Translations under genes and position numbers: made by a program
Notes under the pieces: generated by a model
What the model was told of the DNA's origin: nothing
Seen by the model: only the letters and a program-made list of their open reading frames with translations
Databases searched by the model: none
IMG/VR virus record: IMGVR_UViG_3300034018_001348
Span: 88,016-152,015 of that record
Source of the DNA: a virus
Direction: 5' to 3' (one strand)
DNA: 64,000 nt
Shown: piece after piece, positions 2,920 to 61,574 of the stretch
Numbering within the stretch: the first letter of the stretch is position 1
Layout of the letters: every line of letters begins with the position of its first letter

Positions 2920-2985
2920 ATATTTAAAAGTTTAATTTTTTTACGTTTTTTACATACACATAACAAGGTGTATATGTAATAATTT

Positions 2986-3491: not shown

Positions 3492-3531
3492 AATATATCA
3501 GTTTTTGTGGGGACAAAGATACTACGATTTT

Positions 3532-3807
3532 TTAATCTACCAAATTTTTATCTTTATTTTCCAAATATTTTCTTGACTCACTACACATTTTTTCCAAAAC
3601 CTCTAATGATTTGAGATTCTTAAAGATGATTGTTAGAATTTCCTCACTTTCACCACCTAACACATCAACACCAACCTCATTCGGTTCTGACAATGAATCA
3701 ATCGTAATGAATGGTAATTTAACACTGTTCTCAATTCCCATTCCAAATGATAATTCACCATCTCCGGCCACAATAACTCTCTCACGTTGTTTTTTTACTT
3801 CTGACAT
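3532..3807 (-). CDS. Hypothetical protein, 91 aa
   Basis: Basic start MSEVKKQRERVIVAGDGELS followed by an alternating beta pattern and a C-terminal helix. Located just downstream of the ABC membrane-domain gene (gap 5 nt), so probably co-transcribed with it. No family recognised. Confidence 0.7.
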   Translation of the reverse strand: MSEVKKQRERVIVAGDGELSFGMGIENSVKLPFITIDSLSEPNEVGVDVLGGESEEILTIIFKNLKSLEVLEKMCSESRKYLENKDKNLVD

Positions 3808-3812
3808 AATAT

Positions 3813-4655
3813 TTAATTTTCTGTTTCTAATCTTTTAATAACGTCCTTAATATTAATATATGATGTTAAAATTGTTGGTAACCCAAGAAGAGCATTACAA
3901 AAATCAAACATATATCTATAAGTTGAGAATACACTTCCCACACTCACCTTATTGTACATTACGTAGTATGTTAATAATGCTGTCACACTTCCATAAACAA
4001 TACCTTGAATCCAAATTGAAAACTTAGCATCAATACTTGACATTTTAAGTGATAAGAACTGACCTCTCTTTAATAAATTATTAATTGAGGCAATTTTTCT
4101 TGTACCAATCACATCAGTTTGTTCTTCAGACAAATCATTATATTTACTTGTAATGTTGGCAATTTTTGGTGAATAATATGCTGTTGCCCCCAAGATTAAT
4201 ATTGTTGTAATAATCAAGAATCCAACAATCGGTAAACTTACCATTGCCAAGAAGTAGATGGCGCCAACCAAACCAATAATCGTCTGTATTACCAATAACA
4301 TATCTCGTTCAAAAAACAGGACAATATAGTGCATTAAGGTTAATCTTCCGTTGATTTTTGTTGTCTCAACATCATTATCAAGTTGATTACTTGTTTCAAT
4401 AGAGGCAAATCTCCTATAAATCCCGGAGAATACTTTAGTGTCATAAATTTTACTGATGTACCCGAAGAACATAATTGATGCAAATGTAGAAACCAAATAC
4501 CATATGTATGAATAATCTTTGGTAATTAAGTGGTCAATTGCATTACCCAAAACTTTGGGATACATAACCATCAATATCGCATTAATCATGAACAATGAAT
4601 ATGAAAATATTATTGATTTCCAATTCTCACTAAACATTATTTTTAACTTATCCAT
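3813..4655 (-). CDS. Orphan ABC-exporter transmembrane domain protein
   Basis: 280 residues shaped like the type-1 ABC exporter membrane domain: about six hydrophobic segments, the VMYPKVLGNAIDHLI first helix and loop, a long cytoplasmic helix region around NDLSEEQTDVIGTRKI, and a last segment ending INIKDVIKRLETEN. That last stretch is the usual linker to the nucleotide-binding domain, but the protein stops there. No Walker A, signature or Walker B sequence follows in this or the next gene. It could pair with a host ATPase subunit, interfere with a host exporter, or be a truncated transporter. Confidence 0.7.
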   Translation of the reverse strand: MDKLKIMFSENWKSIIFSYSLFMINAILMVMYPKVLGNAIDHLITKDYSYIWYLVSTFASIMFFGYISKIYDTKVFSGIYRRFASIETSNQLDNDVETTKINGRLTLMHYIVLFFERDMLLVIQTIIGLVGAIYFLAMVSLPIVGFLIITTILILGATAYYSPKIANITSKYNDLSEEQTDVIGTRKIASINNLLKRGQFLSLKMSSIDAKFSIWIQGIVYGSVTALLTYYVMYNKVSVGSVFSTYRYMFDFCNALLGLPTILTSYINIKDVIKRLETEN

Positions 4656-4724
4656 ATCTTATCTTTTTTGATTTTGACAAAGATACAACTAAAATTTAAT
4701 CTACCAAATAATTATGAATTTTCT

Positions 4725-4952
4725 TTAAATTGTTTTCCAAGTCTTTTTAATGGTTTTTGAAAAGTTAACAATTTTTTGACAGTCTTCACAATTTACATTT
4801 TCATTTGTTTTTACAAATTGACCACAAGTCATAAAATCCCCATCAAGTGTTAAACCACATAAAGTGTAATCACTTCCAACCGGTGATGTAAAATGAATTT
4901 CATTTTTGAATATATCATCACCATTACCAATGAATTTTATTTTATTTGACAT
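4725..4952 (-). CDS. Small Cys-containing hypothetical protein, 75 aa
   Basis: Contains LCGLTLDGDFMTCGQF and NVNCEDCQKI, with a C-C/C-x2-C spacing that could bind zinc. Overlaps the stop of the upstream gene by one base at 4952. A TATCTTTG box at about 4680 belongs to the ABC-domain gene further along. Function unknown. Confidence 0.6.
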   Translation of the reverse strand: MSNKIKFIGNGDDIFKNEIHFTSPVGSDYTLCGLTLDGDFMTCGQFVKTNENVNCEDCQKIVNFSKTIKKTWKTI

Positions 4953-5128
4953 TATTCCTCACTTTTTTTAGGTCCCTTGAAATCACAATCAAGACAAACG
5001 TATCTCTGTTCTTCAATGCTCCAATCCATATTATAATGTTGACATTCCTTAGGTTTTAAATATTTTTGTTGTTTCTTGTATTCCGACACCACTTTAAGTG
5101 CTGTTTTATACTGACTTTCTGTTATCAT
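4952..5128 (-). CDS. Small zinc-ribbon-like protein with ITESQ start
   Basis: Start placed at MITESQYKTALKVVSEY (5128), which matches the ITESQ tag found on many later genes. C- and H-containing motifs (ECQHYNMDW and VCLDCDF) suggest a metal site. The stop codon overlaps the start of 4725-4952. A longer start at 5155 is possible but would add a hydrophobic stretch and overlap the HNH gene. Confidence 0.6.
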   Translation of the reverse strand: MITESQYKTALKVVSEYKKQQKYLKPKECQHYNMDWSIEEQRYVCLDCDFKGPKKSEE

Positions 5129-5130
5129 AG

Positions 5131-5640
5131 TTAAAAGAATAAGTAGGGTCTCCATTCATCAGGGATTTCGTGATGAACTTGTTTCATTAACATCAAGTAA
5201 TGAGGTCTCCTTGGTTGAGGAATTTCCTTACCGTATTCCTCCAACGTCAAATTGGACTTCTCACCGTTACACCTTCTACAAGCGGTAACTAAGTTGTCCC
5301 AACTGTCTTTCCCCCCCTTAGATTGGGGTATTACGTGGTCCAAAGTTAGCGTCTTTCTATTATTGTCTCCACAATATACACACTCAAAGTTATCTCTACG
5401 ATAAACATTCTCTCTACTTAAAGGAACTTTTTGAATTATCTGATTCACATATTTGTAGACCCGAATAATTGAAGGTTTTTTGATATCCAATTCAGGATTC
5501 ACTAATTTGAATGATTCCGGATGTTCATTTATAACGTCAGCATTACCCTTATAAGAAATGACGAAAGCCCTCTCTGTGGAAATAATACTCCTCGCCATAA
5601 AACTTGAATCCAAAACCAAAGTTTTTTGGTAACTACTCAC
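5131..5640 (-). CDS. HNH endonuclease
   Basis: 169 residues with a canonical HNH core: CVYCG, LTLDHVIPQSKGG, WDNLVTACRRCN. The two C-x2-C pairs hold structural zinc and the DH pair and N are catalytic. The N-terminal part (KKPSIIRVYKYVNQI) matches the small Bacteroidetes/phage HNH group. Adjacent to the tRNA array; may act in DNA metabolism or as a free-standing homing nuclease. Confidence 0.9.
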   Translation of the reverse strand: MSSYQKTLVLDSSFMARSIISTERAFVISYKGNADVINEHPESFKLVNPELDIKKPSIIRVYKYVNQIIQKVPLSRENVYRRDNFECVYCGDNNRKTLTLDHVIPQSKGGKDSWDNLVTACRRCNGEKSNLTLEEYGKEIPQPRRPHYLMLMKQVHHEIPDEWRPYLFF

Positions 5641-5674
5641 GACTATTAATTTTTAATTAAACATTTTTTTTTTG

Positions 5675-5745
5675 TTCCCCCAAATGGTACTGGCCCATTT
5701 TCCCGATATTAAAAGTATCGTGCTTCACCTTAAAGCTTTAGGGGA
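5675..5745 (-). tRNA. tRNA-Lys (TTT), atypical T loop
   Basis: Acceptor TCCCCTA/TGGGGGA, anticodon arm CGATA-CTTTTAA-TATCG giving anticodon TTT, T stem AATGG/CCATT with loop GCCAGTA instead of TTCGANN. All stems pair, so this is a real but divergent tRNA. No encoded CCA. Confidence 0.75.
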
Positions 5746-5751
5746 TTATTG

Positions 5752-5821
5752 AGCTCATTTTGTTTTGTTATTCGGCTCAAAATATAAGTAATTTGAGATT
5801 AATAATCAAACTTTATGAGCC
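5752..5821 (-). other. tRNA-sized element with 7-bp acceptor-like stem
   Basis: GGCTCAT (minus strand) pairs with ATGAGCT across about 70 nt, and an inner stem CTCAAA/TTTGAG is present. No T arm can be drawn. It lies exactly between tRNA-Lys and tRNA-Ile, so it is either a decayed tRNA or a processing spacer. Confidence 0.3.
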
Positions 5822-5828
5822 ACATTTG

Positions 5829-5901
5829 TCGGTCAGGTGGGTATCGAACCCACTACCTTTCGCGTATCAGGCGAATGCTCTACCGATTGAGCTACTGACC
5901 G
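5829..5901 (-). tRNA. tRNA-Ile (GAT)
   Basis: Acceptor CGGTCAG/CTGACCG, D arm AGCTCAATCGGTAGAGC, anticodon arm TTCGC-CTGATAC-GCGAA (GAT), T arm GTGGG-TTCGATA-CCCAC, discriminator A. CCA not encoded. Confidence 0.92.
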
Positions 5902-5906
5902 AATTG

Positions 5907-5978
5907 TTAGGGTGGAGAGGGTCGAACTCTCCGCTTCCTGCCTCCAATGCAGGCTTCTCACCCCGAGAATACACCCTA
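5907..5978 (-). tRNA. tRNA-Pro (TGG)
   Basis: Acceptor TAGGGTG/CACCCTA, anticodon arm CCTGC-ATTGGAG-GCAGG (TGG), T arm GGAGA-GTTCGAC-CCTCTCC region, discriminator A. It can read CCA and CCG, which matters for the proposed Pro-codon hop in the kinase gene at 45167. Confidence 0.88.
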
Positions 5979-5992
5979 ATATATTTTTTTTG

Positions 5993-6077
5993 TAGAGAAT
6001 ATGGGATTCGAACCCATACCCCCATTTAAGGAGGGACACATTAGCAGTGTGTTCTGATACCGTTACAGCAATTCTCT
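5993..6077 (-). tRNA. tRNA-Ser (GCT)
   Basis: Class II tRNA: acceptor AGAGAAT/ATTCTCT, anticodon arm ACACA-CTGCTAA-TGTGT (GCT), long variable arm CCCTCC...GGGGG, T arm ATGGG-TTCGAAT-CCCAT. Its first 15 nt are also the last codons of the HNH gene 6063-6857. Confidence 0.92.
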
Positions 6078-6857
6078 TTTTGAATAATTAACAATAAATT
6101 CTGATTTACCTGTTTCAGTTATTTCTTCGTGTATTTCACAATGACAATTACTACAAACCAAAACACATTTATCAACCTCTTTTTTCATTTTTTCTTCTGA
6201 ATAATTTTTACCCCCTATAGTAAAATCTTTTTCATCAGGATTGATATGGTGAAATTGTAAGGCGTTCATAGATTTACTATAACCACATCTCTGACAACAA
6301 CCACCTTTATACTCAACTAATCTTTTTTTTCTATTTTTACGACATCTAACTACGTGTTCAACAGAACTTTTCCTACGTTCAATCGCGGTTTGAGTTTTGA
6401 CCTCAACAATACTACTAATAATCTTTCTACCAACTCCTAATATTTCACTAACTTTTCGGATGCTACCAATTTTGTCATATAATTCTTTTATTTTTTTTAT
6501 AAAATCCTCATCTTTAAATCTTAATTCATTTTTATTTTTATTAAGATTAAAAATTTTACAAATTCTGATTACTTTATCTTGACTAATATTAACTTGGGGA
6601 AAAATACTTTTATATGTTTCACCATTTTGTTTTAAATTAATAATTTTATCAATTACCGATTTGTCAATTAGTTTTAAAAAATCTTCATCATTTATTGTTG
6701 TTGTTTTATAATTTTCGTGAACACCTCCCATACCATTTTTATTAATATGATATGAAATAACACCGACGCTACAACCCAATATATTTTTAATATTTGTAAT
6801 ACTATATCCTTCTAACCTCAATTTTAATATTGAATCTTTTAATTTTTCTGTTTCCAT
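6063..6857 (-). CDS. HNH homing-type endonuclease with helical DNA-binding N-terminus
   Basis: 264 residues. The N-terminal two thirds show repeated helix-turn-helix-like units (YSITNIKNILGCSVGVISYH, GSIRKVSEILGVGRKIIS). The C-terminal HNH has CCQRCGYSK, LQFHHINPDEKDF and CVLVCSNCHCEIHEEI. It lies inside the tRNA array and its last 15 nt, stop included, are the 5' end of tRNA-Ser, as expected for a mobile gene inserted against a tRNA. Confidence 0.9.
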   Translation of the reverse strand: METEKLKDSILKLRLEGYSITNIKNILGCSVGVISYHINKNGMGGVHENYKTTTINDEDFLKLIDKSVIDKIINLKQNGETYKSIFPQVNISQDKVIRICKIFNLNKNKNELRFKDEDFIKKIKELYDKIGSIRKVSEILGVGRKIISSIVEVKTQTAIERRKSSVEHVVRCRKNRKKRLVEYKGGCCQRCGYSKSMNALQFHHINPDEKDFTIGGKNYSEEKMKKEVDKCVLVCSNCHCEIHEEITETGKSEFIVNYSKRELL

Positions 6858-6916
6858 TTACTTAATTTGTTTATTAATAAATATATCAAAAATATTGAAA
6901 AGTTCAAGTTTTTTTT

Positions 6917-6991
6917 GTGTCCCCAAGAGGATTCGAACCCCTATTCTATCTGTCGTAAAGATAAGTCCTTTCCAGTTGAACGATGGAGACA
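6917..6991 (-). tRNA. tRNA-Arg (ACG)
   Basis: Acceptor TGTCTCC/GGGGACA with one G-U pair, anticodon arm TATCT-TTACGAC-AGATA (ACG), T arm AGGGG-TTCGAAT-CCTCT. The base at the discriminator position reads C, which is unusual. Confidence 0.82.
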
Positions 6992-7047
6992 ATTTGATGT
7001 CTTTCCATCAGTCATCCCTATTATTTGGTAAGGGTGGAACATCCTTG

Positions 7048-7190
7048 TGGTCAGGACAGGTCTCGAACCTGTACGATTGAAAAGACCAATTTTACTCGGT
7101 TCTTCGGGATGGTCAACATATTTAATGTGATGTCTCACGGCCCGATTAATCAATCACCCATTACGCGTCTACCAATTCCGCCACCTGACC
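7048..7190 (-). tRNA. Oversized tRNA-Leu-like gene (143 nt)
   Basis: Perfect acceptor GGTCAGG/CCTGACC, Leu-type D arm GTGGCGGAATTGGTAGACGC and T arm ACAGG-TTCGAGA-CCTGT. About 93 nt separate D and T arms, some 55-60 more than a class II tRNA needs. TAATG/CATTA could be a split anticodon stem, and GACCA/TGGTC forms a further hairpin. No anticodon can be assigned; an intron or enlarged variable arm are both possible. Confidence 0.5.
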
Positions 7191-7193
7191 AAT

Positions 7194-7293
7194 TTGAGGT
7201 TGAGAATTCCTCTGTGTCATAGAGAACTTATACTCTAGTTTTTAGTACCCCTCATCTCACAACGGTTTGCGTACCGTATCGGGAATAACACAT
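7194..7293. repeat. Spacer repeat unit 1
   Basis: Begins TTTGAGGTTGAGAATTCCTC and ends GGGAATAACACATTT. The same beginning and end recur at 7436-7552. The two units flank the oversized tRNA-like gene 7298-7435. Confidence 0.55.
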
Positions 7294-7297
7294 TTCG

Positions 7298-7435
7298 AAT
7301 TAAAGGTAGGACTCGAACCTACGACCTGATTTCCTTTTCCACTTAGTTCGGTATTGGATGTGACTCCGTCCCTTATTCGTTGTTTTTCTCTTTCGAGTTA
7401 GGTATGTCTGTTCTAACCAACTGAACTACTTTAAT
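7298..7435 (-). tRNA. Second oversized tRNA-like gene (138 nt)
   Basis: Acceptor ATTAAAG/CTTTAAT, D arm TAGTTCAGTTGGTTAGAACA and T arm GTAGG-TTCGAGT-CCTAC are intact, but the centre is about 60 nt too long and has no canonical anticodon arm. Together with 7048-7190 this suggests introns or insertions in the anticodon region. Confidence 0.45.
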
Positions 7436-7552
7436 TTTGAGGTTGAGAACTCCTCGTGTTGTGCAAATATAGACATAAATCCTTTAAAATTTATAATCTC
7501 ACCCGACTATTCCATTCCCCTCCCACCGGGAACAACACATTTACCATTACTG
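7436..7552. repeat. Spacer repeat unit 2
   Basis: Second copy of the unit at 7194: starts TTTGAGGTTGAGAACTCCTC and ends GGGAACAACACATTT with a diverged middle. Nothing gene-like was seen from here to 7690 apart from a short CCAG/CTGG hairpin near 7590. Confidence 0.5.
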
Positions 7553-7692
7553 ATAGTATCTTTATGTAAATTAGAGATATTCTATTCCAGACTTACCTGG
7601 ACTTCTGTATTATATTTCAGAAACTTTTAAGGTTTCACCTCTATCTGATTGTCCCAGATTAATTTACAAAGATACTTAATATTTACCAATTT

Positions 7693-7896
7693 TTATTTCC
7701 ATTGAGTTTTTCGGTTATACTTCCAAGTTTTGTGTTCTCTATATTTGTGAGAGAACTGACCTTTTCTGTAATGAACACCCTCGTCCCAATATGGTGGGTA
7801 TTCAAACTTTAACCAAATCAATCTATAATCTTTTGAACAAGTCGCCTTGTTCAATTTCATTCTGTTTGTGTTTACACTCATAATCTCTGAGTCCAT
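7693..7896 (-). CDS. Small basic protein within the tRNA array
   Basis: Up to 67 residues, rich in Lys, Arg, Trp and Tyr (EYPPYWDEGVHYRKGQFSHK). The start could also be MSVNTNRMKLNK six residues on. Charge suggests nucleic-acid binding. No family recognised. Confidence 0.55.
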   Translation of the reverse strand: MDSEIMSVNTNRMKLNKATCSKDYRLIWLKFEYPPYWDEGVHYRKGQFSHKYREHKTWKYNRKTQWK

Positions 7897-7951
7897 TGTT
7901 TAGTGGACCTCAAAGATTGTCTAATACCTTTTTCATAATATTTTAATTAAG

Positions 7952-8024
7952 TGTGAAAGGTGGGACTCGAACCCACAATCTCCTGGACCACAACCAGACG
8001 CTTTACCAATTCAGCTACAATCAC
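7952..8024 (-). tRNA. tRNA-His (GTG)
   Basis: Anticodon arm TCTGG-TTGTGGT-CCAGG (GTG), T arm GTGGG-TTCGAGT-CCCAC. An extra 5' G is encoded at 8025 opposite C at 7951, as expected for tRNA-His. The acceptor has two T-T mismatches. Confidence 0.82.
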
Positions 8025-8040
8025 CATGTACTTTATTTTG

Positions 8041-8114
8041 CTCTCCAGCTAGGACTTGAACCTAGGACTCTCGTATTAACAGTACGATGCTCTAACCAAC
8101 TGAGCTACTGAAGA
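8041..8114 (-). tRNA. tRNA-Asn (GTT)
   Basis: Acceptor TCTTCAG/CTGGAGA, D arm AGCTCAGTTGGTTAGAGC, anticodon arm TCGTA-CTGTTAA-TACGA (GTT), T arm CTAGG-TTCAAGT-CCTAG, discriminator G typical of Asn. Confidence 0.92.
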
Positions 8115-8120
8115 ATTTTT

Positions 8121-8171
8121 ACCTTACTTCCCCGGCTTAACGGACCGAGTGCCATATAGGAGGTGTAAGGT
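8121..8171. other. 51-nt element closed by a 7-bp stem between tRNAs
   Basis: ACCTTAC pairs with GTAAGGT and an inner GGC/GCC hairpin is present. It sits between two Asn tRNA genes. Too short for a tRNA; may be a processing signal. Confidence 0.35.
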
Positions 8172-8178
8172 GACCTCG

Positions 8179-8250
8179 AGGACCGGGGGAATTTCGAAAT
8201 CCCGACCCGCAGACTAACAACCTGCCGCTCTTCCTCTGAGCTACCAATCC
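8179..8250 (-). tRNA. tRNA-Asn (GTT), second divergent copy
   Basis: Acceptor GGATTGG/CCGGTCC with G-U pairs, anticodon arm GCAGG-TTGTTAG-TCTGC (GTT), T arm GGGAT-TTCGAAA-TTCCC. Discriminator U and weak T stem mark it as different from the Asn gene at 8041. Confidence 0.72.
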
Positions 8251-8400
8251 GATTTTGACCACTATGTTATTTTGCGAACGTATGAAGCTCGTATCATTAT
8301 TAAGTCATAGTAGTCCAAGGCGTTACGCATCCATCTGTAACTTTACTTTTCTTGAGTCCCGGTAAGGCCTTACCAACTCTGGGAACGATTACCTCGTTTG

Positions 8401-8473
8401 TGTGTCCTACAGGAATCGAACCTGTTCCTTTCGCTCTTCAGGCGGACGTACGCACCAGCTATACGAAAGACAC
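8401..8473 (-). tRNA. tRNA-Phe (GAA)
   Basis: Acceptor GTGTCTT/AGGACAC, anticodon loop CTGAAGA (GAA) on a stem with one mismatch, T arm ACAGG-TTCGATT-CCTGT, discriminator A. The spacer 8251-8400 upstream of its 3' end holds no gene. Confidence 0.85.
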
Positions 8474-8632
8474 AATTATAATAATGTTGGAGTACCCGTC
8501 TCGCTCCAATCTTAAGTGCTTAATCGTAGTTTTACGAGGCCCTCGGCACATTCCCTTTTCAGGGGGGTGATGATTTCTTTGACCTATCCTGAATTGTCGA
8601 CATCCGATGGATAGAGAAAACCATTATTATAG

Positions 8633-8713
8633 TGGAAAATAGTGGACTCGAACCACTCCCGTGAGGACCTGATTTACAGTCAGGGTGCCGTATCCGAACG
8701 ACTTTTATTTTCC
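8633..8713 (-). tRNA. tRNA-Tyr (GTA)
   Basis: Class II: acceptor GGAAAAT/ATTTTCC, anticodon arm CCTGA-CTGTAAA-TCAGG (GTA), variable arm TCCTCACGGGA, T arm AGTGG-TTCGAGT-CCACT. Spacer 8474-8632 holds hairpins but no gene. Confidence 0.9.
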
Positions 8714-8718
8714 TTTTG

Positions 8719-8789
8719 TACCTCGTGATGGTTACGCTCCACCGCCATTTGTATGTAAAACAAATACGCTCCTATTACGCCAACGAGGT
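8719..8789 (-). tRNA. tRNA-Val (TAC), atypical T loop
   Basis: Acceptor ACCTCGT/ACGAGGT, anticodon arm TTTGT-TTTACAT-ACAAA (TAC), T stem GGTGG/CCATC with loop AGCGTAA instead of TTCGANN, the same kind of deviation as tRNA-Lys at 5675. Confidence 0.75.
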
Positions 8790-8795
8790 AAATTG

Positions 8796-8867
8796 TACCG
8801 ATGGGTGGGATTGAACCACCGACACCTTCCGTATGAAAGAAGTGCTCTACCACTGAGCTACATCAGT
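8796..8867 (-). tRNA. tRNA-Met (CAT)
   Basis: Acceptor ACTGATG/CATCGGT, D arm AGCTCAGTGGTAGAGC, anticodon arm CTTCT-TTCATAC-GGAAG (CAT), T arm CGGTGG-TTCAATC-CCACC. The 1-72 pair is formed, so elongator Met or a lysidine Ile type fits better than initiator. Confidence 0.88.
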
Positions 8868-8931
8868 ATTGTGGTGGACATAGGCTCATCACCTACTCGT
8901 GGGTTTCCACCGAACCCCTTGTTACCCCTAA

Positions 8932-8993
8932 TGGAATCGAACCACTCCCGCATGGACCAAAACCATGTGTACTAACCGATATACGAAGGGGCA
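8932..8993 (-). tRNA. tRNA-Gln (TTG), short
   Basis: Acceptor TGCCCCT/AGGGGTA, anticodon arm CATGG-TTTTGGT-CCATG (TTG), T arm AGTGG-TTCGATT-CCATT. Somewhat shorter than usual because the D-arm region is compressed. Confidence 0.8.
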
Positions 8994-9002
8994 AAATATT
9001 TT

Positions 9003-9090
9003 TTAGTTAAAGAACGGTTACCACAATTACGTTCGCCTCGGCTTCACTCCGAACATTCTTTTTTGGGTGTGGATTAAACTATTTAACTAA
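9003..9090. other. Spacer closed by a 9-bp stem
   Basis: TTAGTTAAA and TTTAACTAA bracket about 70 nt that contain an inner GTTCG/CGAAC hairpin. It lies between tRNA-Gln and tRNA-Ser. No cloverleaf was found. Confidence 0.35.
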
Positions 9091-9094
9091 CCCG

Positions 9095-9177
9095 CGGAGG
9101 AGACAGGATTCGAACCTGCAACCCGTTTCCGAGCGACGGTTTTCAAGACCGCTCGACAACCAACTGTCCACTCCTCC
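9095..9177 (-). tRNA. tRNA-Ser (TGA)
   Basis: Class II: acceptor GGAGGAG/CTCCTCC, anticodon arm GCGGT-CTTGAAA-ACCGT (TGA), variable arm CGCTCGGAAACGGGT, T arm GCAGG-TTCGAAT-CCTGT, discriminator G. A TACCTTTG promoter box lies upstream near 9228-9235 and may start the array transcript. Confidence 0.9.
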
Positions 9178-40908: not shown

Positions 40909-41270
40909 ATGTAATATTCTATTGTGTTAACAGGTATCTTGAAAGTTTCAACAAACCATTCTTTAAATCCTTCTTTCCAATTATCATTAAAATAACCTTC
41001 TAATGAGTTAAGAAGTCCTTGGTCTTCAACATACAACATTGGACTTAATGGTTTTCGGTAATCTGATGCTCCGGTCCAATAGTCTTCACCATATAACCTG
41101 AACAATGTTTCATCATCCATATAATCACCTAAATAAAATTCAATTGCGTCTTGTTCCTGACCCCAATCATCAGTTAAACGAGTCCAATTAATATTTTCAA
41201 TATCCAAAGTGTTGTTTAGGTAATTTTTAACCGTTTGATTTAATTTACTTTCTGTTATAATGTATTTCAT
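40905..41270 (-). CDS. ITES family protein, 121 aa
   Basis: MKYIITESKLNQTVKNYLNN tag, acidic middle (WGQEQDAIEFYLGDYMDDET) and family-type end (FNDNWKEGFKEWFVETFKIP). Its leader is the last degenerate repeat of CRISPR array A. No enzymatic motif. Confidence 0.72.
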   Translation of the reverse strand: MKYIITESKLNQTVKNYLNNTLDIENINWTRLTDDWGQEQDAIEFYLGDYMDDETLFRLYGEDYWTGASDYRKPLSPMLYVEDQGLLNSLEGYFNDNWKEGFKEWFVETFKIPVNTIEYYI

Positions 41271-41279
41271 AATTTACTT

Positions 41280-41497
41280 AATTTGTATTGTTCCTCCACC
41301 AGACTTTTTTTTCCGAAATAAATCAATGTGGGTTGTTGTCACCTCCAATTTGTAATGTTCCTCCACCTTTTTCCTTTTTCGATGTAACGCAAAAGCGTTG
41401 TTGTCACCTCCAATTTGTAATGTTCCTCCACCAATAAACACGGCTCAAATATTCATCAATAGTTGTTGTCACCTCCAATTTGTAATGTTCCTCCACC
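41280..41497 (-). CRISPR. CRISPR array A: three perfect 36-nt repeats plus one partial
   Basis: Identical 36-nt repeats at 41332-41367, 41397-41432 and 41462-41497 (plus-strand start GTTGTTGTCACCTCC, end AATGTTCCTCCACC), and a partial repeat ending at 41300. Spacers of 31, 29 and 29 nt are unlike each other. On the minus strand the repeat ends in GACAACAAC, like array B ends in TCACAAC, and both share CAT(T/C)ACAA and GGT. No cas genes are adjacent; the effector would be the nuclease at 58920. Confidence 0.85.
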
Positions 41498-41751
41498 CAC
41501 GCTTTCGTTAGGTCTTCTATTTCCTCATTATTTAACTCAAAAAAGGATTTCAAAAATGACCAAATATGAGTATAAGAGACATGAGCAACCCCATTTTTTT
41601 CATTATAGTCAAACATAACTTCACCATCTTTCATAAAGAATATGTGGTTAGGGTATTCGTCTGTTTTATATGGTTTCAAATCACCATATTCGGTGTTAAG
41701 GTATTTGAGAATACCTCGATTTTTTTGACTTTCTGTTATAATGTATTTCAT
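41404..41751 (-). CDS. ITES family protein running into CRISPR array A
   Basis: 115 residues with MKYIITESQKNRGILKYLNT tag and family-type SFFELNNEEIEDLTKAWVEE end. From residue about 86 on the frame runs through repeat 3 and spacer (HYKLEVTTTIDEYLSRVYW) and ends in repeat 2, so its natural C-terminus has been replaced or extended by the array. Confidence 0.65.
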   Translation of the reverse strand: MKYIITESQKNRGILKYLNTEYGDLKPYKTDEYPNHIFFMKDGEVMFDYNEKNGVAHVSYTHIWSFLKSFFELNNEEIEDLTKAWVEEHYKLEVTTTIDEYLSRVYWWRNITNWR

Positions 41752-41752
41752 T

Positions 41753-42022
41753 TTAATCTTCTAATAATTCCCAAGTCACACCTAACCAATAGTCGCGACC
41801 TTCTTTTAATCCGGTATATCCGGTAACCAATTCAATTATATTTTCCATATCGTATAGGTGGTTATAATTGTTTGCCTCATATACTAATTCAAAATAAGGA
41901 TAATCACCATCATAGGTTGACCTCATTTCTTTTAAAATTCTAATCACGGGATAAGGATGAACTGATGAATGTCCAAAAAAAGCATCTAATAATGATTCAA
42001 CTTTTTTACTATCCTTATTCAT
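41753..42022 (-). CDS. Hypothetical protein, 89 aa
   Basis: MNKDSKKVESLLDAFFGHSS... with YPYFELVYEANNYNHLYDME and a short helical end. One base from 42024-42722, so in the same operon. Unknown function. Confidence 0.65.
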   Translation of the reverse strand: MNKDSKKVESLLDAFFGHSSVHPYPVIRILKEMRSTYDGDYPYFELVYEANNYNHLYDMENIIELVTGYTGLKEGRDYWLGVTWELLED

Positions 42023-56006: not shown

Positions 56007-56960
56007 CTAATTAATTTTAACACCCTTCTCAAGTGTTTCCTCAAGATAATCTATAAAAGCTTTTGTTCTATCTTCTTTACCGTGATAATAATTACCATAA
56101 CCTATTAGTTCTCCACTTTGGTCTGGTAATGGTTTTATTTCTTTTACACCATTCTCAATTATATCACCAATCCAATCAACAACGACCTCATTCAATTTTT
56201 TTGTTTTTTTAACTCCATTTTTAATCACACCATCAATTCTTCCTTTGTGTTGATATACATCATAGTAAGTTTCATTAACACCCTTGTCAATCACCTTATC
56301 AATTATGTCTTCTCCCACATATTGTCGTGGGTTAGAACTTTTAACACCATTTTCAAGTGCATCATCAATGTCTCCGGTATATTCACGAGATTCTAATTTT
56401 GAAGTCATTTTCACTCCATCTTGTATGACAATTTCAATAACACAAGAACCATCCATTTGTAATGATTTGTTGGTTAGTTTCACCCCTTTAGTTTTCTTCA
56501 CACCATCTTGTATGATGTCATCAACCTCACCTTCAGTAATGTTCATTTCCAAACAGGTTTCTTTTACTCCGCCTTTAATAACATTTTCAACCCAACTTGT
56601 ATTATCTTCCGGGTTCCAACAAGTTTCTTTAATCCCATTCTCAAAAACCTCCATCAGATTATATGATGGTGTTTGAGATGGTGACGCGGTATTCTTAGAA
56701 CCATTCATTACATTATCTTCTACCCATTTTGTGATGAGGTGTTGGTTTTGAACAACCTCCAATGAGGCATACCCAAAAAGATTTTTAAAGAAATTAAAAT
56801 TATACCACAGGGTTTTACTTTCAGTTAATTCTATCACCCATTGTTTGGACTCCGTAAAGATTAACCAAGTGGAACCATTATGATTATATGTGTCAACACC
56901 TTGGACAGAAGAATTAATTAAGGTGTTTATTATTTTTCCCATAATCTTTTTATTAGACAT
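56007..56960 (-). CDS. GVK-repeat protein, 317 aa
   Basis: Start MSNKKIMGKIINTLINSSVQ (56960). N-terminal domain of the paralogous family (STWLIFTESKQWVIELTESK, FFKNLFGYASLEVVQ). From about residue 100 on, a 25-35-residue repeat with (V/I)I-x2-GVK-x-T recurs about eight times (VIKGGVKETC, IIQDGVKKTK, VIQDGVKMTS, ALENGVKSSN, VIDKGVNETY, VIKNGVKKTK, IIENGVKEIK). Repeat role unknown, possibly binding. Confidence 0.7.
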   Translation of the reverse strand: MSNKKIMGKIINTLINSSVQGVDTYNHNGSTWLIFTESKQWVIELTESKTLWYNFNFFKNLFGYASLEVVQNQHLITKWVEDNVMNGSKNTASPSQTPSYNLMEVFENGIKETCWNPEDNTSWVENVIKGGVKETCLEMNITEGEVDDIIQDGVKKTKGVKLTNKSLQMDGSCVIEIVIQDGVKMTSKLESREYTGDIDDALENGVKSSNPRQYVGEDIIDKVIDKGVNETYYDVYQHKGRIDGVIKNGVKKTKKLNEVVVDWIGDIIENGVKEIKPLPDQSGELIGYGNYYHGKEDRTKAFIDYLEETLEKGVKIN

Positions 56961-57234
56961 TATTTTTAAATATATTTGGTTGAATCTCAGCATCTTCAAA
57001 AGATTCTGTGGATACAAACTCACTTTTCAAATAATTAATTACATGTTCCATCATCTCGTAATCTTTAAAATCTCCGTTTTTATGTCCAGCCTTCATTAAT
57101 AAAGACATACCCGCAGCCAACATCATTGTTGATTCCTTAACAGATAATGCCTCTTGGTCTTTTGGGAATCCAATGTCAAAGTAGTTTCTATCGTTTTCAC
57201 GTCTCCACGTTACACCAATTGTTAATCCATCCAT
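56953..57234 (-). CDS. Hypothetical protein, 93 aa
   Basis: MDGLTIGVTWRRENDRNYFD..., helical middle (MMLAAGMSLLMKAGHKNGDF). Overlaps the start of the GVK-repeat gene by 8 nt. TATCTTTGTC lies about 20 nt upstream. Confidence 0.66.
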   Translation of the reverse strand: MDGLTIGVTWRRENDRNYFDIGFPKDQEALSVKESTMMLAAGMSLLMKAGHKNGDFKDYEMMEHVINYLKSEFVSTESFEDAEIQPNIFKNNV

Positions 57235-57267: not shown

Positions 57268-57430
57268 TTATTTTATATTTCCAAAAAAGTATGAGCAATA
57301 AAAAACCCACTGATTTGTGATAGGATTAATAATCCAATAAGATTCTTTGTATTCATAGCACACAAATCCCTCAATGGAATTATTTAGAACTTTATTAATT
57401 AACTTTTTCAAACAGTTCAAAGAATTTATC
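57268..57430 (-). pseudogene. Fragment of family N-terminal domain
   Basis: Reading LKKLINKVLNNSIEGFVCYE..., SYWIINPITNQWVFYC is similar to the start of 56007-56960 (GKIINTLINSSVQGVDTYNH, STWLIF). It lacks its own start codon in this frame and overlaps the end of 57395-57772, so it is probably a truncated copy. Confidence 0.5.
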
Positions 57431-57772
57431 CTTATTGTTTTTTTCAGGGGGGAATATAAATGACTGAACATGGAATGATACAAATCCCATCTCACTACCG
57501 TAAGTCATTTTAAAATAATCATTAATCTCCGTACTATATTCATGTTTACTTTTCTTCATTCCATTGTGGTTATCAAAATGGATGTCAACTCCAACCAAAT
57601 ATTTATATATCGGGGAGAAGTTTATTGGGTCATATATAATTTGTTCCCTATATCCTGTGGAAACAACATCAATAATCTCGGGGCACATCTTCAGTATGAC
57701 AACCTTTAATGTATCGGGGACTTCAATTTTCTTATCGTTCGGGGATGGAAATAAAGTATCTTCATTTTTCAT
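57395..57772 (-). CDS. Hypothetical protein, 125 aa
   Basis: MKNEDTLFPSPNDKKIEVPD..., alpha/beta with DPINFSPIYKYLVGVDIHFD and a family-like C-terminal part (NDYFKMTYGSEMGFVSFHVQ). TATATCTTTG box at about 57785 (minus). Confidence 0.68.
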   Translation of the reverse strand: MKNEDTLFPSPNDKKIEVPDTLKVVILKMCPEIIDVVSTGYREQIIYDPINFSPIYKYLVGVDIHFDNHNGMKKSKHEYSTEINDYFKMTYGSEMGFVSFHVQSFIFPPEKNNKDKFFELFEKVN

Positions 57773-57824
57773 ATACTACTTTTTTACAAAGATATAACAA
57801 AGATTCCACATAACCAAAAAAAGG

Positions 57825-57890
57825 GTTGGGATTCCATCGAACGAAGTGAGTGACCGGACGAAGTGAGTGACCGGACGAAGTGAGACTACT
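57825..57890. repeat. Dispersed CGAACGAAGTGAG repeat, copy 1
   Basis: GGGATTCCATCGAACGAAGTG followed by tandem ACGAAGTGAGTGACCGG units. Related copies at 60184, 61637, 62222 and 62998. Lies between 57886 and 57772 ends. Confidence 0.65.
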
Positions 57891-58293
57891 CCCGCCCCCA
57901 CCCATAATGAACCACCTCCCCATCAATATATTCCTTCCAAGTTTTATTCCATGGACCGGAAAACAATACGGTCATACATCCGTTACTATTAGAAATCCGG
58001 TGATATGAATCCCGGGGAAAATAAACCAAGACTTTCTCCCTACGAACAATACGATATTCTCCACTAACCTCATCATCCAAGATTTGTTCATCATACTCAC
58101 CAAACAGTTTCACAGACCACGCATTAAAAGCGTGGGTATGAAACCGGTCCTGACTACCAAGAGATTTATGAAAATAAAAAAAGATGATGGAGAATAACCA
58201 CTTACACTCAAAGACCACGAATTGACTAACGACCTGTTCCCCGAACTCGAACTTATTGTATTTTAGAAATGAAATTGTTTTTGTTTTTACCAT
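57886..58293 (-). CDS. Cupin-like protein, 135 aa
   Basis: DRFHTHAFNAWSVKLFGEYD, VLVYFPRDSYHRISNSNGCM and TVLFSGPWNKTWKEY are conserved in RmlC-like cupins that carry two His plus a later His. Metal-binding enzyme or sensor; substrate unknown. Confidence 0.7.
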   Translation of the reverse strand: MVKTKTISFLKYNKFEFGEQVVSQFVVFECKWLFSIIFFYFHKSLGSQDRFHTHAFNAWSVKLFGEYDEQILDDEVSGEYRIVRREKVLVYFPRDSYHRISNSNGCMTVLFSGPWNKTWKEYIDGEVVHYGWGRE

Positions 58294-58343
58294 AATGAAT
58301 ATACCTTATGGAATAAAAGTATAATTCTAATTTATGGTTATGT

Positions 58344-58383
58344 CAAATAAAAAACCCCAAATCTAATTAAAGAAATGGGGTAT
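58344..58383 (-). terminator. Terminator after CRISPR array B
   Basis: On the minus strand ATACCCCATTT...GATTTGGGGT forms a stem followed by TTTTTTATTTG, ending the transcript that would run from the tnpB-like gene or leader through the array. Confidence 0.6.
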
Positions 58384-58405
58384 GTTTAAAAACATATTGG
58401 TAACA

Positions 58406-58703
58406 TTTTTTTTTTGTGTTTAAATTGTAATGATTCCCAACTTGCTCCCCTGTTAGAGTTAAAATGTTATGTTGTGACTATCTTTCAAATTGTGATGATT
58501 CCCAACTTTGAATTTCGTTGAGGCTAACTTACAGCGGTTGCGACTACCTTTCAAATTGTGATGATTCCCAACTCAAAATGTTATTCAATTGGGGATTTTA
58601 TGTTGTAACTACCTTTCAAATTGTGATGATTCCCAACCCTATTAACGAGGTTTATATCGGTGTCCTCGTTGTGACTACCTTTAAAATCGAGACACATCCC
58701 AAT
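58406..58703 (-). CRISPR. CRISPR array B: five 36-nt repeats, four spacers
   Basis: Well-conserved repeats at 58471-58506, 58537-58572 and 58602-58637 (plus-strand start GTTGTGACTACCTTTCAAA, end TGATGATTCCCAAC), each with one base difference. Terminal repeats at 58406-58441 and 58668-58703 are degenerate in the outer half, as end repeats usually are. Spacers are 29, 30, 29 and 30 nt and unrelated. Minus-strand polarity, the same as the nuclease gene, is supported by the downstream terminator and upstream leader. Confidence 0.92.
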
Positions 58704-58906
58704 AATGGCTTTTCAAATGAAATTGTGATAGTCTATCCGTTCTCGGATAATGAGGTTTTGAGACCCCTAGCCGCCTAACCGTTCCGGCAATCACACGTTG
58801 ACCGTGTTCTTTTACCCGGGTTATATCTGCATACAGTGTTTTAACCTTTTAACGTGTTACACACACGCGAGTTACCAATATGTTTAAGAACTTTTTTATT
58901 ATGATA
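58704..58906 (-). ncRNA. Candidate guide-scaffold or leader RNA
   Basis: About 200 nt between the nuclease stop and array B. It is GC-richer than its surroundings, with potential stems such as GCCGGAACGGTTAGGC and CCCGGGT. It starts below a TATCTTTG promoter and runs into the array. A diverged repeat-like stretch (near 58708-58735) shares TTTCAAAT and ATTGTGAT with the repeat. Could be a tracrRNA, scoutRNA or omega-RNA-like scaffold. Confidence 0.5.
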
Positions 58907-58914
58907 CAAAGATA
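58907..58914 (-). promoter_or_regulatory. TATCTTTG box upstream of CRISPR leader
   Basis: TATCTTTG on the minus strand, directly downstream of the nuclease stop codon at 58920 and with no ORF after it, consistent with transcription of the leader and array. Confidence 0.6.
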
Positions 58915-58919
58915 AGTAA

Positions 58920-60122
58920 TTATTCTCTAACTAACAAACTTTCTCTGATATTTTTTGCTGCGTTTATATCTCTATCGTGGTGTTCCTCACAAGACTTACA
59001 GGTCCATTCCCTTTGGGATAACTTTAACTCAGTATTTATATCCCCACAGTTAGAACAAGTCTTACTTGTATTACGGGGGTCAATCCTATTAAATTCAATT
59101 CCTTTTGAATTACAAACACTTCCCAAATAATCGACAAATGAACGAATCCCGATTCTTGCAGTGGATTTAGCCATATGTTTATTCTGTAACATAAATGACA
59201 AACGAATATCCTCAACTTGTATTTTAGAAAACTTACCTTTAGTTAAAACACCAACAACATATCTGTGATATTCTTTTCTAATATTATTTAATTCATTCTG
59301 TAATCTACCCTTCTTCTCAATTACTCTCCAATAATTTTTGGATTTAGGTTTACCCTTGTTTAATCTGTTCTTACGAGATATACTCTTTTGAATAATTGAA
59401 ATCTTATCTTCCAATTTTTTAATCCTCTCAATTGGTACCTGATATTTAAGTCCTTCGGATGTAATTGCCATATCTTTAATACCTACATCAATTCCCAATG
59501 ATTTACCCGAACTATTAATCTTAACAATTTCAGTATCCTTTAAATCCAATGTTAAAGATAAATACCAATTACCATCAGACTTCCTATGGATTGACATTAA
59601 CTTTGGTGTAGACCCTTTGAATTGTTTATGAAACTTACATTTTATAATTGGATTTATCCCAACTTTTTTAAGTAAAGTAGGAGCAAACCTAATTTCATTA
59701 TTATCCCAATCCAAACTTAAACTTCCACGACTAATACTATTTGAATTAGTCGTTAATTTCAATATATTCGTTTTTTTCTTATACGAAGGTTTTCTTGATT
59801 TTGGTTTTTTTCTGAAATTTTTAATTGATGTGACCAAAGATTCAGAAACATATTCCCTAAATATTGATGGAACATTATCAAACCAATTAATCGTTGAAAG
59901 ATAATTAGAGAAAAGAGATTTACTCTTTAAGTTCGGAGCAGGAAAGTCCTTAAAATCTTTCCCATCAATAAATTCACTAACCAAAAGATTATATCCCCCT
60001 CTTAATTTATTACCAATATCAAATAACCATCTCTTTTGTTTATCATCCGGGTATATCCTATACTCAACTGATACTCCAACATAAGATGGACCCTTTTTTC
60101 TTTCAACCAAAAAATGATTCAT
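58920..60122 (-). CDS. TnpB/Cas12-like RNA-guided nuclease, 400 aa
   Basis: Start at MNHFLVERKKGPSYVGVSVE (60122); the longer start at 60251 lies in a dispersed repeat. RuvC motif I SLGIDVGIKDMAI (about D212), motif II FSKIQVEDIRL (E304), zinc site TCSNCG/WTCKSC and motif III HHDRDINAAKNI (D385). All catalytic residues present. IS605-type TnpB in size, but a CRISPR array follows directly and no tnpA or IS ends were seen, so a miniature type V-U/Cas12f-like effector is the preferred reading. Confidence 0.88.
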   Translation of the reverse strand: MNHFLVERKKGPSYVGVSVEYRIYPDDKQKRWLFDIGNKLRGGYNLLVSEFIDGKDFKDFPAPNLKSKSLFSNYLSTINWFDNVPSIFREYVSESLVTSIKNFRKKPKSRKPSYKKKTNILKLTTNSNSISRGSLSLDWDNNEIRFAPTLLKKVGINPIIKCKFHKQFKGSTPKLMSIHRKSDGNWYLSLTLDLKDTEIVKINSSGKSLGIDVGIKDMAITSEGLKYQVPIERIKKLEDKISIIQKSISRKNRLNKGKPKSKNYWRVIEKKGRLQNELNNIRKEYHRYVVGVLTKGKFSKIQVEDIRLSFMLQNKHMAKSTARIGIRSFVDYLGSVCNSKGIEFNRIDPRNTSKTCSNCGDINTELKLSQREWTCKSCEEHHDRDINAAKNIRESLLVRE

Positions 60123-60141
60123 ATATAATTTATTTAGAAAG

Positions 60142-60149
60142 CAAATATA
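60142..60149 (-). promoter_or_regulatory. TATATTTG promoter of nuclease gene
   Basis: TATATTTG, 20 nt before the ATG at 60122. The surrounding TTTATTTAGAAAGCAAA leader is shared with gene 61158-61574. Confidence 0.6.
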
Positions 60150-60183
60150 AAACAAAGAATTCAAATCACCAAATATATAATGA

Positions 60184-60235
60184 AAAAAAGGAATGGGATT
60201 CCCTCGAACGAAGTGAGAAACCGGACGAAGAGCAC
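60184..60235. repeat. Dispersed repeat, copy 2
   Basis: AAAAAAAGGAATGGGATTCC then CTCGAACGAAGTGAGAAACC. Upstream of the nuclease gene; the AT-rich segment between repeat and promoter resembles that upstream of 61158-61574. Confidence 0.6.
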
Positions 60236-60243
60236 TATACGAA

Positions 60244-60522
60244 TTACTCATCAGCAGGGATATTATTTAACCAATTATTAAAATATTGTGAAGTATCCAC
60301 ATGATTTAATCCAAATAGTTTTCTTATACTATTGTATAACTCAGACTTCATAGATATTTTACTAACACTATGTGGTCTCGAACCAACCTTAACTCCATTC
60401 ACAATATAATAATAACTAAACATCTTAAACGCCCTCTCAAAATGGTTACTCTCTTTCGATACCGATAAGGTGGGGTTATCACCAACAATAGAATTAAGAT
60501 ATTCATGAACCAATTTTTCCAT
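60244..60522 (-). CDS. Paralogous small protein, 92 aa
   Basis: MEKLVHEYLNSIVGDNPTLS..., family end SELYNSIRKLFGLNHVDTSQ, YFNNWLNNIPADE. No ITES. Overlaps the upstream stop by one base. Confidence 0.68.
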   Translation of the reverse strand: MEKLVHEYLNSIVGDNPTLSVSKESNHFERAFKMFSYYYIVNGVKVGSRPHSVSKISMKSELYNSIRKLFGLNHVDTSQYFNNWLNNIPADE

Positions 60523-60710
60523 TATGTTGTTTCATTAATATCGGACATCACATAACCTTCAGGTGGAAAATGAACCAAACATCTTCCACTCTCTTTATAA
60601 CAAGTACAATCCAATTCATCATCAATCTCAAATGAAGCACTGCTCACCTTATCTTCGTAATTTGTGAAGAAATCATTAAAGATTCCCGTAATGGTCATTT
60701 TCTTTTTCAC
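60522..60710 (-). CDS. Small Cys-containing protein, 62 aa
   Basis: MKKKMTITGIFNDFFTNYED... with ELDCTCYKESGRCLVHFPPE (three Cys, one His). Acidic. Unknown function. Confidence 0.62.
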   Translation of the reverse strand: MKKKMTITGIFNDFFTNYEDKVSSASFEIDDELDCTCYKESGRCLVHFPPEGYVMSDINETT

Positions 60711-60715
60711 CTTAC

Positions 60716-61039
60716 TTATTTTTTGAATAGTGAAACCCTTTGAGGGTCTATTGTTATCACAATGTTATTACTTGAATCCGCATACGAAGCAATGTCATCA
60801 TCCAATAACATTTTATGGATATTATCATCATAATAAATCACCACATCATTGTATGAGTAATGTGGGTAATGATTTTTGATTGGTTCCAATAGAACAACAT
60901 CAGTACATTGACTAATGGCACCGTCCATAATGGATTTAATTAGTTCATAATAATATTGATTTCGGTTTTTCTTATACTCGTTCAATATATCAATTCGAGA
61001 TAAGGGTTCAGTTGTTTTTGGTTTGGAGTTCCACATCAT
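60716..61039 (-). CDS. Hypothetical protein, 107 aa
   Basis: MMWNSKPKTTEPLSRIDILN..., alpha/beta with DVVLLEPIKNHYPHYSYNDV. Same operon as 60522. Unknown function. Confidence 0.65.
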   Translation of the reverse strand: MMWNSKPKTTEPLSRIDILNEYKKNRNQYYYELIKSIMDGAISQCTDVVLLEPIKNHYPHYSYNDVVIYYDDNIHKMLLDDDIASYADSSNNIVITIDPQRVSLFKK

Positions 61040-61054
61040 TTTTTACTATTTCTA

Positions 61055-61150
61055 TTAATTTTTTAAGACATTACATATTAAAGCTAACAATGGTAATGAT
61101 AAGAGTAATAATGAAATTACTAACCCCCAATAATCTTTTATTTTTTGCAT
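61055..61150 (-). CDS. Single-span membrane peptide, 31 aa
   Basis: ORF MQKIKDYWGLVISLLLLSLP... LLALICNVLKN: one hydrophobic helix with short charged ends. Could be a small lysis or stress peptide. Short, but start and stop fit neighbouring gene spacing. Confidence 0.45.
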   Translation of the reverse strand: MQKIKDYWGLVISLLLLSLPLLALICNVLKN

Positions 61151-61157
61151 ATTTCTA

Positions 61158-61574
61158 TTAATTTTTTAAGTTTTGCTTCTTAACAATTTCTATCAACTTG
61201 ACCAAACATTCAAGTTCTGCTTCTTCGTAAGTTTGAAAAAAAGTATCCCATATTAATCCGCCTATTCTAAAATCACTATTATATTCAGTGATATTATCTT
61301 GGATATACCAACAATAAGGTTGTTGATATTTGTTTTCTTTAGTAATCCAACTATCTAAATTATACTTCTCTCTAAACCATCTAAATGCTTGTTGGTAAAG
61401 TGGTGCTACAAATGTTGTTTTAGATTCTAATCTAAATTGAAAAGGAGCAGATATAGTTTCATTTGATATATAAACCTCTCTATCTTTACCTACATAATAT
61501 CCTAAACAAGGTTCATCAAATCCTAATTCTTTTAAAGCTAATGCTTGTTCGTAAGGTATAAATTCTTTTTCCAT
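61158..61574 (-). CDS. Conserved Bacteroidetes-type hypothetical protein, 138 aa
   Basis: MEKEFIPYEQALALKELGFD..., FVAPLYQQAFRWFREKYNLD and EAELECLVKLIEIVKK are typical of a small protein that recurs in Bacteroidetes genomes and their mobile elements. Promoter TATATCTTTG with leader shared with the nuclease gene. Function unknown; supports the host assignment. Confidence 0.8.
   Translation of the reverse strand: MEKEFIPYEQALALKELGFDEPCLGYYVGKDREVYISNETISAPFQFRLESKTTFVAPLYQQAFRWFREKYNLDSWITKENKYQQPYCWYIQDNITEYNSDFRIGGLIWDTFFQTYEEAELECLVKLIEIVKKQNLKN

Follow-up and report, generated by a model that had tools for sequence, protein, structure and literature searches.

The last 64 kb of a 152-kb virus record (IMG/VR IMGVR_UViG_3300034018_001348, positions 88,016 to 152,015; these 64,000 nucleotides (nt) are referred to as the window) carry an array of clustered regularly interspaced short palindromic repeats (CRISPR) next to a gene for the nuclease TnpB. 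This array, array A, is a real CRISPR array with five 36-nt repeats and four spacers of 29-30 nt. Judged by their sequence, its repeats are of the Cas13b (type VI-B) kind. The best explanation, to which we give about even weight, is that a phage-borne mini-CRISPR array lends guides to a Cas13b of the host, and that TnpB is an independent neighbor. The window matches a portion of a longer record (309 kb, G003) of the same phage, which bears out the earlier placement of this locus in a large phage. The locus has the following elements.

58350..58380, minus strand: terminator-like hairpin and T run, 3' of the array (from sequence and transcript fold)
58406..58441, minus strand: terminal repeat R5, 25/36 to the consensus, 5' two thirds conserved and 3' third lost
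58442..58470, minus strand: spacer S4, 29 nt
58471..58506, minus strand: repeat R4
58507..58536, minus strand: spacer S3, 30 nt
58537..58572, minus strand: repeat R3
58573..58601, minus strand: spacer S2, 29 nt
58602..58637, minus strand: repeat R2
58638..58667, minus strand: spacer S1, 30 nt
58668..58703, minus strand: leader-proximal repeat R1, degenerate, 28/36 to the consensus, mainly the 3' half kept
58704..58919, minus strand: leader, 216 nt from the tnpB stop to the array, with no significant fold or anti-repeat
58907..58938, minus strand: promoter box TTTG-N20-TATCTTTG at the tnpB stop codon, from which the leader/array transcript probably starts
58920..60122, minus strand: tnpB, encoding a 400-residue RNA-guided nuclease (from family scores, alignments, an AlphaFold2 model and fold matches)
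60142..60173, minus strand: promoter box TTTG-N20-TATATTTG before tnpB (from a motif scan)

Anatomy of array A

Repeats R2, R3 and R4 each differ from their consensus by 1 nt. Array A is not a chance arrangement, because these repeats are near identical while the bases that flank the 36-nt units drop to chance identity. The original prediction had described five 36-nt repeats with 29-30-nt spacers on the strand of tnpB, and this description stands. Its promoter box ahead of the leader is also upheld. The TTTG-N20-TATCTTTG box at 58938-58907 is of a kind that we take to be a Bacteroidota-type promoter, and such boxes (spacing 18-22) are enriched in the window, where 22 occur against 4.8 expected. 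Both tnpB and array A have a separate box. The predicted terminator fared less evenly. A hairpin with a T run forms at 58380-58350 in the transcript fold, but it is absent from a consensus terminator scan that takes loops of 3-8 only.

Coding tandem repeats are sometimes called as CRISPRs (excerpted in PMC5294841), and coding 22-residue repeats are present in this phage. It is nevertheless very improbable that array A is an ordinary tandem repeat or a false CRISPR, as its edges are sharp at 36 nt, its spacers are random, its repeat type is common to Cas13b loci and no open frame runs through it. The same evidence makes it unlikely that the repeats belong to an unrelated tandem element.

Repeats of the Cas13b type

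A repeat-derived pattern scanned over genome_contigs found 11 loci, all with Bacteroidota names, and the repeats were readable in nine. The array A consensus aligns to these nine without gaps, with 27-31 of 36 positions identical (mean 29.2), whereas shuffled controls average 9.5 and reach at most 16.6 in 2000 trials. The comparison was repeated on the 12 positions left free by the scan, because the pattern had fixed part of the sequence. Identity there is 7.3 of 12 versus 3.5, and two of 5000 shuffles were equal or higher. The closest repeats (31/36) come from two Chryseobacterium loci. In all four loci tested of the 11, Cas13b adjoins the array as a large gene on the array strand. The high repeat identity and the Cas13b genes beside the tested arrays are the reasons for assigning array A to type VI-B.

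Other properties agree with this assignment. The combination of 36-nt repeats and 29-30-nt spacers matches the 66-nt unit of Bacteroidota Cas13b arrays. The stem of VI-B repeats is preserved in R2-R4 apart from pair 10-28, and across 13 repeats 88.8% of cells pair at the stem positions versus 28-58% when the stem is slid.

BLAST of array A gave matches in eight of 320 genomes of one family and seven of 397 of another. Arrays of this repeat account for the stronger matches, and the weak single ones lie in the repeat, at the R4/S4 junction or in an A-rich end. No high-identity spacer match was found in these 320 and 397 genomes. The Cas13b repeat pattern had no match in viral_contigs, a scan that says little because array A itself does not fit the pattern.

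Two isolated repeat-like sequences are of note. One is a 31/36 match to R1 at 1501-1536 of locus L277, within what appears by eye to be a prfC-like gene of a Flavobacteriaceae-family genome, and is probably due to chance. The other is an apparently solitary Cas13b-type repeat at about 648-683 of L245, on plasmid pES183-2 of Empedobacter stercoris, a possible type VI RNA anti-CRISPR.

The TnpB gene and its relation to the array

The protein was predicted to be an intact RuvC nuclease of about 400 residues, and its key residues support this. Two alignments with other TnpBs (7 and 12 sequences) show no variation in the triad D212/E304/D385 or in the zinc-site cysteines C356/C359/C375/C378. It scores 185 bits with the NCBIfam guided TnpB family (NF040570, guided_TnpB; cut-off 100). 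The two NCBIfam Cas12 families that it reaches are far under their cut-offs, at 68 bits for c2c8 (350) and 45 for Cas12f2 (450). PADLOC Cas12f profiles match it with an E value of 1.7e-31, but these profiles have no cut-off and may match ordinary TnpBs as well. The AlphaFold2 model has a mean predicted local distance difference test score (pLDDT) of 79.7 and a predicted template modeling score (pTM) of 0.55. A fold search with this model returns two TnpB chains first, followed by LaTranC, another TnpB, Fanzor and Cas12f. The best sequence match in the PDB is 8iaz, titled as TnpB. A type V effector, as originally proposed, is not supported by the NCBIfam scores, and the separate promoter boxes of gene and array also speak against that reading.

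TnpB genes that lack tnpA are common. The original prediction had called for tnpA to be sought in the flanks, and no IS200/IS605 Y1 transposase (Y1_Tnp) was found in any of four records; the IS607 resolvase and element ends were not covered by model searches. IS605 ends around tnpB were dropped as a candidate, since the Y1 transposase was not found. Strict peptide patterns recovered no close TnpB relatives from genome_contigs. Among the matches listed for viral_contigs, the same phage comes first, followed by loci at 26-37% identity. Full-length relatives are about 26-31% identical, too distant for analysis of omegaRNA covariation, and there is no Rfam match above the gathering threshold in 57400-61400.

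The arrangement of the locus raises the question of whether TnpB could be the effector of the array. It would then be a hybrid that took over a Cas13b-type array, in the manner of TranC, with the 216-nt leader acting as an omegaRNA or as an RNA like the trans-activating CRISPR RNA (tracrRNA), and with the repeats acting as handles of the CRISPR RNAs. The order tnpB, 216 nt, array on one strand gives TnpB the place that cas13b has in VI-B loci. There, the distance from cas13b to the next repeat is 61, 134, 619 and 833 nt in L263, L260, L259 and L264 (L259 has repeats on either side of the gene, and the first repeats of L264 are degenerate). LaTranC is among the fold matches. Moreover, arrays with 58-74-nt spacing occur at four of 78 other viral TnpB loci among the matches listed, compared to none of 78 at each of two control spacings. 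These four represent two lineages, L064 and three Lactobacillus-phage loci.

We nevertheless consider this hybrid quite unlikely. The repeats are of the Cas13b type, the promoter boxes are separate and NCBIfam classifies the protein as TnpB, under both Cas12 cut-offs reached. The leader fold is not unusual (z -0.6), and the leader:repeat duplex, at -19.1 versus -15.8 +/- 2.7, is equaled by 66 of 500 shuffled leaders. A GACTATC-GGTAGTC pairing with the look of a split omegaRNA was rejected as an anti-repeat or tracrRNA element, as shuffled leaders (66 of 500) and shuffled repeats (56 of 500) do equally well. The original idea of a miniature type V system, intermediate between TnpB and Cas12, is disfavored by the Cas13b-type repeats and by the lack of a significant anti-repeat.

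Some of the other viral loci merit description. At about 2898-3450 of L064 (IMGVR 3300021255_001934), roughly nine 36-nt repeats with a strong palindrome lie between TnpB/Cas12f-like frames of 400 and 507 residues. As a possible viral type V system, this locus is more promising than that of array A. In the Lactobacillus phages (L078, L087 and L106), a palindromic array with 66-nt spacing begins about 190 nt after tnpB, with a sigma-70-like promoter visible by eye, and its spacers are partly common to the different phages.

A possible source of guides for host Cas13b

No cas1 gene scores over the cut-off in 10 phage records, consistent with the predicted lack of this gene; one 13-bit match below the cut-off occurs in G003. 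Cas13b is likewise found in none of seven phage records (of the cas genes, cas1 and cas13b alone were searched). Because neither Cas13b nor Cas1 was found in the phage, array A most likely works via the host, which is probably a member of the Bacteroidota.

The mechanism that we favor would proceed as follows. Array A, with its type VI-B repeats, own promoter, leader and terminator-like end, would be transcribed and the transcript processed by host Cas13b. The four guides could then be aimed at RNA of competing phages or of host defenses. New spacers would be inserted by adaptation proteins of the host, and TnpB would operate as a stand-alone nuclease under its own promoter. We infer the host and its Cas13b, the production and processing of the transcript, the targets and acquisition in trans. 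Excerpts of PMC13187072 and PMC8092290 describe VI-B arrays as being read from leader to array, and the promoter and orientation of array A agree with this direction. Acquisition in trans has a parallel in Flavobacterium columnare, where, according to part of PMC8092290, the Cas1 of a II-C system fills a VI-B array.

Several results weigh against this explanation. The repeat stem shows no significant covariation (as high in 65 of 500 shuffles), and R2-R4 alone fold at -1.5 to -4.9 kcal/mol versus -7.3 to -11.2 for five Bacteroidota repeats. The hairpin between leader and first repeat of VI-B arrays was tried and rejected here, with 10.8 expected paired bases versus 13.7 +/- 5.5 for scrambled leaders, 195 of 300 of which are as high. 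Array A recurs unchanged in three further records (97, 117 and 309 kb) of this phage; because all four records carry the same array, no turnover is visible. The only tnpB found in the phage also ends 216 nt before the array, on the strand of the array, and in our judgment this is hard to call chance.

The lack of identified spacer targets also counts against it. Array A spacers had no credible match to phages and plasmids, where matches were repeat-like or due to chance, and the cores of S1 and S3, the two scanned in viral_contigs, occur in this phage only. When 62 spacers from array A and other arrays were searched with up to five mismatches in 2.97 Mb that include the phage itself and its relatives, every one of 233 occurrences was beside a repeat and none was outside an array. 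Two other arrays also lacked a credible match to phages. No match supports the rival phages or plasmids first suggested as targets.

Arrays at the ends of phage genes

Array A is not the only array in this phage. G003 holds at least five others, consisting of arrays B, C, D and E and a two-repeat array.

Window 41265..41497, minus strand: array B, four 36-nt repeats (the last degenerate), spacers of 29, 29 and 31 nt
G003 308093 on: array C
G003 305509 on: array D
G003 3884 on: array E
G003 about 303.4 kb, minus strand: two-repeat array (L160)

Array B is built on a small gene (open frame at about 41407-41760), at its 3' end and out of frame with it. CRISPR-like arrays of the same 36/30 design occur on the same paralogous gene family at L134, L140, L141, L154, L170, L184, L246 and L254. 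Phages related to G003 thus have arrays of this design too. In the further arrays of G003, the repeats are the 3' coding ends of small paralogous genes, with readings such as W-VEEHYKLEVTTT or W-VESALNCGVTTT. Across five phage records, 28 open frames match a profile built on the domain that precedes the repeat. Many of these frames are array-free, and most end soon after the matching W.

The gene-end set, which leaves out arrays A and E, comprises 18 distinct arrays of at least two repeats and contains 50 distinct spacers; L251 and L255 are variants of one lineage. Within arrays, repeats are on average 84% identical (terminal repeats included). Spacers are 26.3% identical versus 27.3% for random sequences, and the best of 56 pairs reaches 47%. 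The edges of the repeats were profiled with 35 neighboring repeat pairs from 14 arrays of at least three repeats, with terminal repeats dropped. Identity is 0.20 at position 0 but 1.0 at position 1; at the other edge, position 36 has 0.86 and position 37 has 0.31.

Spacing keeps 13 of the 18 arrays in frame. Their 38 spacers are 30 nt (34 cases), 33 nt (two) or 27 nt (two) long. A stop in the coding frame is present in one of these spacers, whereas 14 and 21 spacers have a stop when read in the two alternative frames. The remaining five arrays, which are out of frame, contribute 12 spacers of 29-31 nt. Codon differences among the repeats, counted over pairs, are silent in 42 cases and non-silent in 118, so there is no strong protein-level constraint on the repeat. 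Plain protein repeats were rejected as the sole cause of these arrays because spacer identity is at chance and five of 18 arrays are out of frame. An open frame at window 56007-57023 (minus strand) encodes degenerate, mostly 22-residue units (V..VI..GVK.T plus variable residues) and may represent an ancient in-frame array.

When genes of one kind are compared between phages, as with L141 and L170, their bodies and tails are similar and their spacers unrelated. One spacer is common, at 90-93%, to G008, the L251/L255 lineage and L254, with differing gene-proximal and distal spacers. The nearby DNA of L251 and L255 is 98.9-100% identical, except that one of them has an extra unit at the gene-proximal end. 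A polarity of array growth is suggested by such comparisons, although loss of a unit by recombination is as likely as gain because the first two L251 repeats differ.

Adaptation complexes act at repeat ends. At these positions (1-7 and 25-36), gene-end repeats match Cas13b-type repeats at 11-13 of 19 bases versus 5.1-5.4 when shuffled, and for each of seven repeats only 0-6 of 3000 shuffles are as high. Likeness over all 36 positions is weaker (15.3-19.2), and array E alone is above all 2000 shuffles. The leader-repeat junction is discussed in a portion of PMC8092290.

The gene-end arrays suggest that an adaptation-like process acts on phage genomes. We infer that adaptation machinery for such repeats, which was not found in the phages, has inserted spacers into their DNA. 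A fuller version, whose likelihood we put slightly short of even, is that these phages are recipients of adaptation. Host Cas1-Cas2 would add spacers and duplicate exactly 36 nt at the 3' ends of genes whose DNA mimics the ends of the Cas13b-type repeats of the host, giving arrays that are read in frame as units of 22 residues and that turn over from phage to phage. Array A would then stand out as the one member that has a full Cas13b repeat and a promoter of its own. If this is true, the birth of CRISPR arrays has been caught in viral genes, either as a decoy for adaptation or as an arming of the phage.

These observations also bear on whether array A provides guides at all. It might instead be a by-product or decoy, formed as in the gene-end arrays when host adaptation proteins insert spacers wherever phage DNA resembles a VI-B repeat. 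Its repeats might then divert adaptation or sequester Cas13b. This account draws on the five or more additional 36/30 arrays at gene ends in the same phage, on the resemblance of gene-end repeat ends to Cas13b repeats and on spacers that lack known targets. Repeat-mimicking RNA anti-CRISPRs are also known, although the available part of the PMC10651486 survey has none for type VI. We regard it as doubtful, since array A alone combines a complete VI-B repeat with a promoter box of its own and a terminator-like end, and since RNA anti-CRISPRs are solitary repeats whereas array A has five. The supply of guides to a host Cas13b remains our preferred explanation for array A.

Phage setting

TnpB and array A most likely occupy an accessory region of the phage as two neighboring units, to judge from comparison with its relatives. 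A conserved gene at 57886-58293 is retained in three sister phages, and homology ends at 58325-58363, which places the TnpB-array cassette in a variable region. Weak matches to the stretch 58872-58956, which surrounds the second promoter, occur in three of four sister phages. TnpB is found in none of six array-bearing related phage records, which are possibly incomplete; this weighs against a functional tie between TnpB and the array.

A 54-nt direct repeat is present on both sides of the cassette but was discounted, as it recurs at three further nearby places. Its copies, of 36-54 nt (GGGATTCC...CGAACGAAGTGAG), lie near window positions 57810, 60177, 61634, 62218 and 63001, and in G003 they are confined to this part. 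Two of these copies bracket the cassette plus one gene. A perfect 15-bp inverted repeat (58390-58404 and 58871-58885) encloses the leader and array; 42 of 2000 shuffles, A/T runs included, contain one.

Elsewhere in the window, 13 tRNA genes lie within 342-9177, 12 of them within 5828-9177. At 202751-205567 of G003, a large gene with an intein-like stretch stands beside a terminase-like gene (both judged by eye).

Comparison with known systems

Neither Cas13b-type arrays in phages nor in-frame arrays at phage gene ends were found to be reported in the open-access literature searched. The nearest precedents for array A are the virus-borne mini-arrays of archaeal SPV1 and SPV2 (excerpts of PMC6858448 and the review PMC8616872). 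Like array A, these have a leader and promoter, reside in a viral genome and carry cellular-type repeats. They too are without cas genes, of which cas1 and cas13b alone were searched in this phage. Array A differs by its type VI-B repeats, four spacers, adjoining tnpB and lack of identified targets. A Cas13b-type phage array would be the type VI counterpart of these viral mini-arrays.

Bacteroidota type VI-B arrays share the 36-nt GTTG...CACAAC repeats, the 66-nt unit and the order effector, leader, array on one strand. In the phage locus, tnpB occupies the position of cas13b, the repeat stem is weaker and the setting is a phage genome. CRISPR-associated TnpB, type V-U and TranC systems also have TnpB beside an array, but the present locus is unlike them in its Cas13b-type repeats and its lack of a significant anti-repeat. 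About 50 TnpB-array associations (part of PMC12669027) and two viral TnpBs near arrays (part of PMC12607003) have been reported. The gene-end arrays add a caution, as an array that adjoins a nuclease gene need not belong to that nuclease.

RNA anti-CRISPRs, the solitary repeat units surveyed in PMC10651486 (cited from an excerpt), are also CRISPR repeat mimics in phages. Array A is unlike them in having five repeats, and that excerpt includes no solitary unit for type VI.

The gene-end arrays carry more weight than array A, because they look like random 30-nt inserts combined with exact 36-nt duplication at protein-coding sites in several large phages. They make the origin of new CRISPR arrays testable. 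Non-canonical spacer integration can form new CRISPR loci at non-CRISPR sites. The resulting repeat-plus-spacer arrays at new sites are the likeliest model for the gene-end arrays, which differ in that the case for them comes from phage sequence only and that they lie in frame inside genes.
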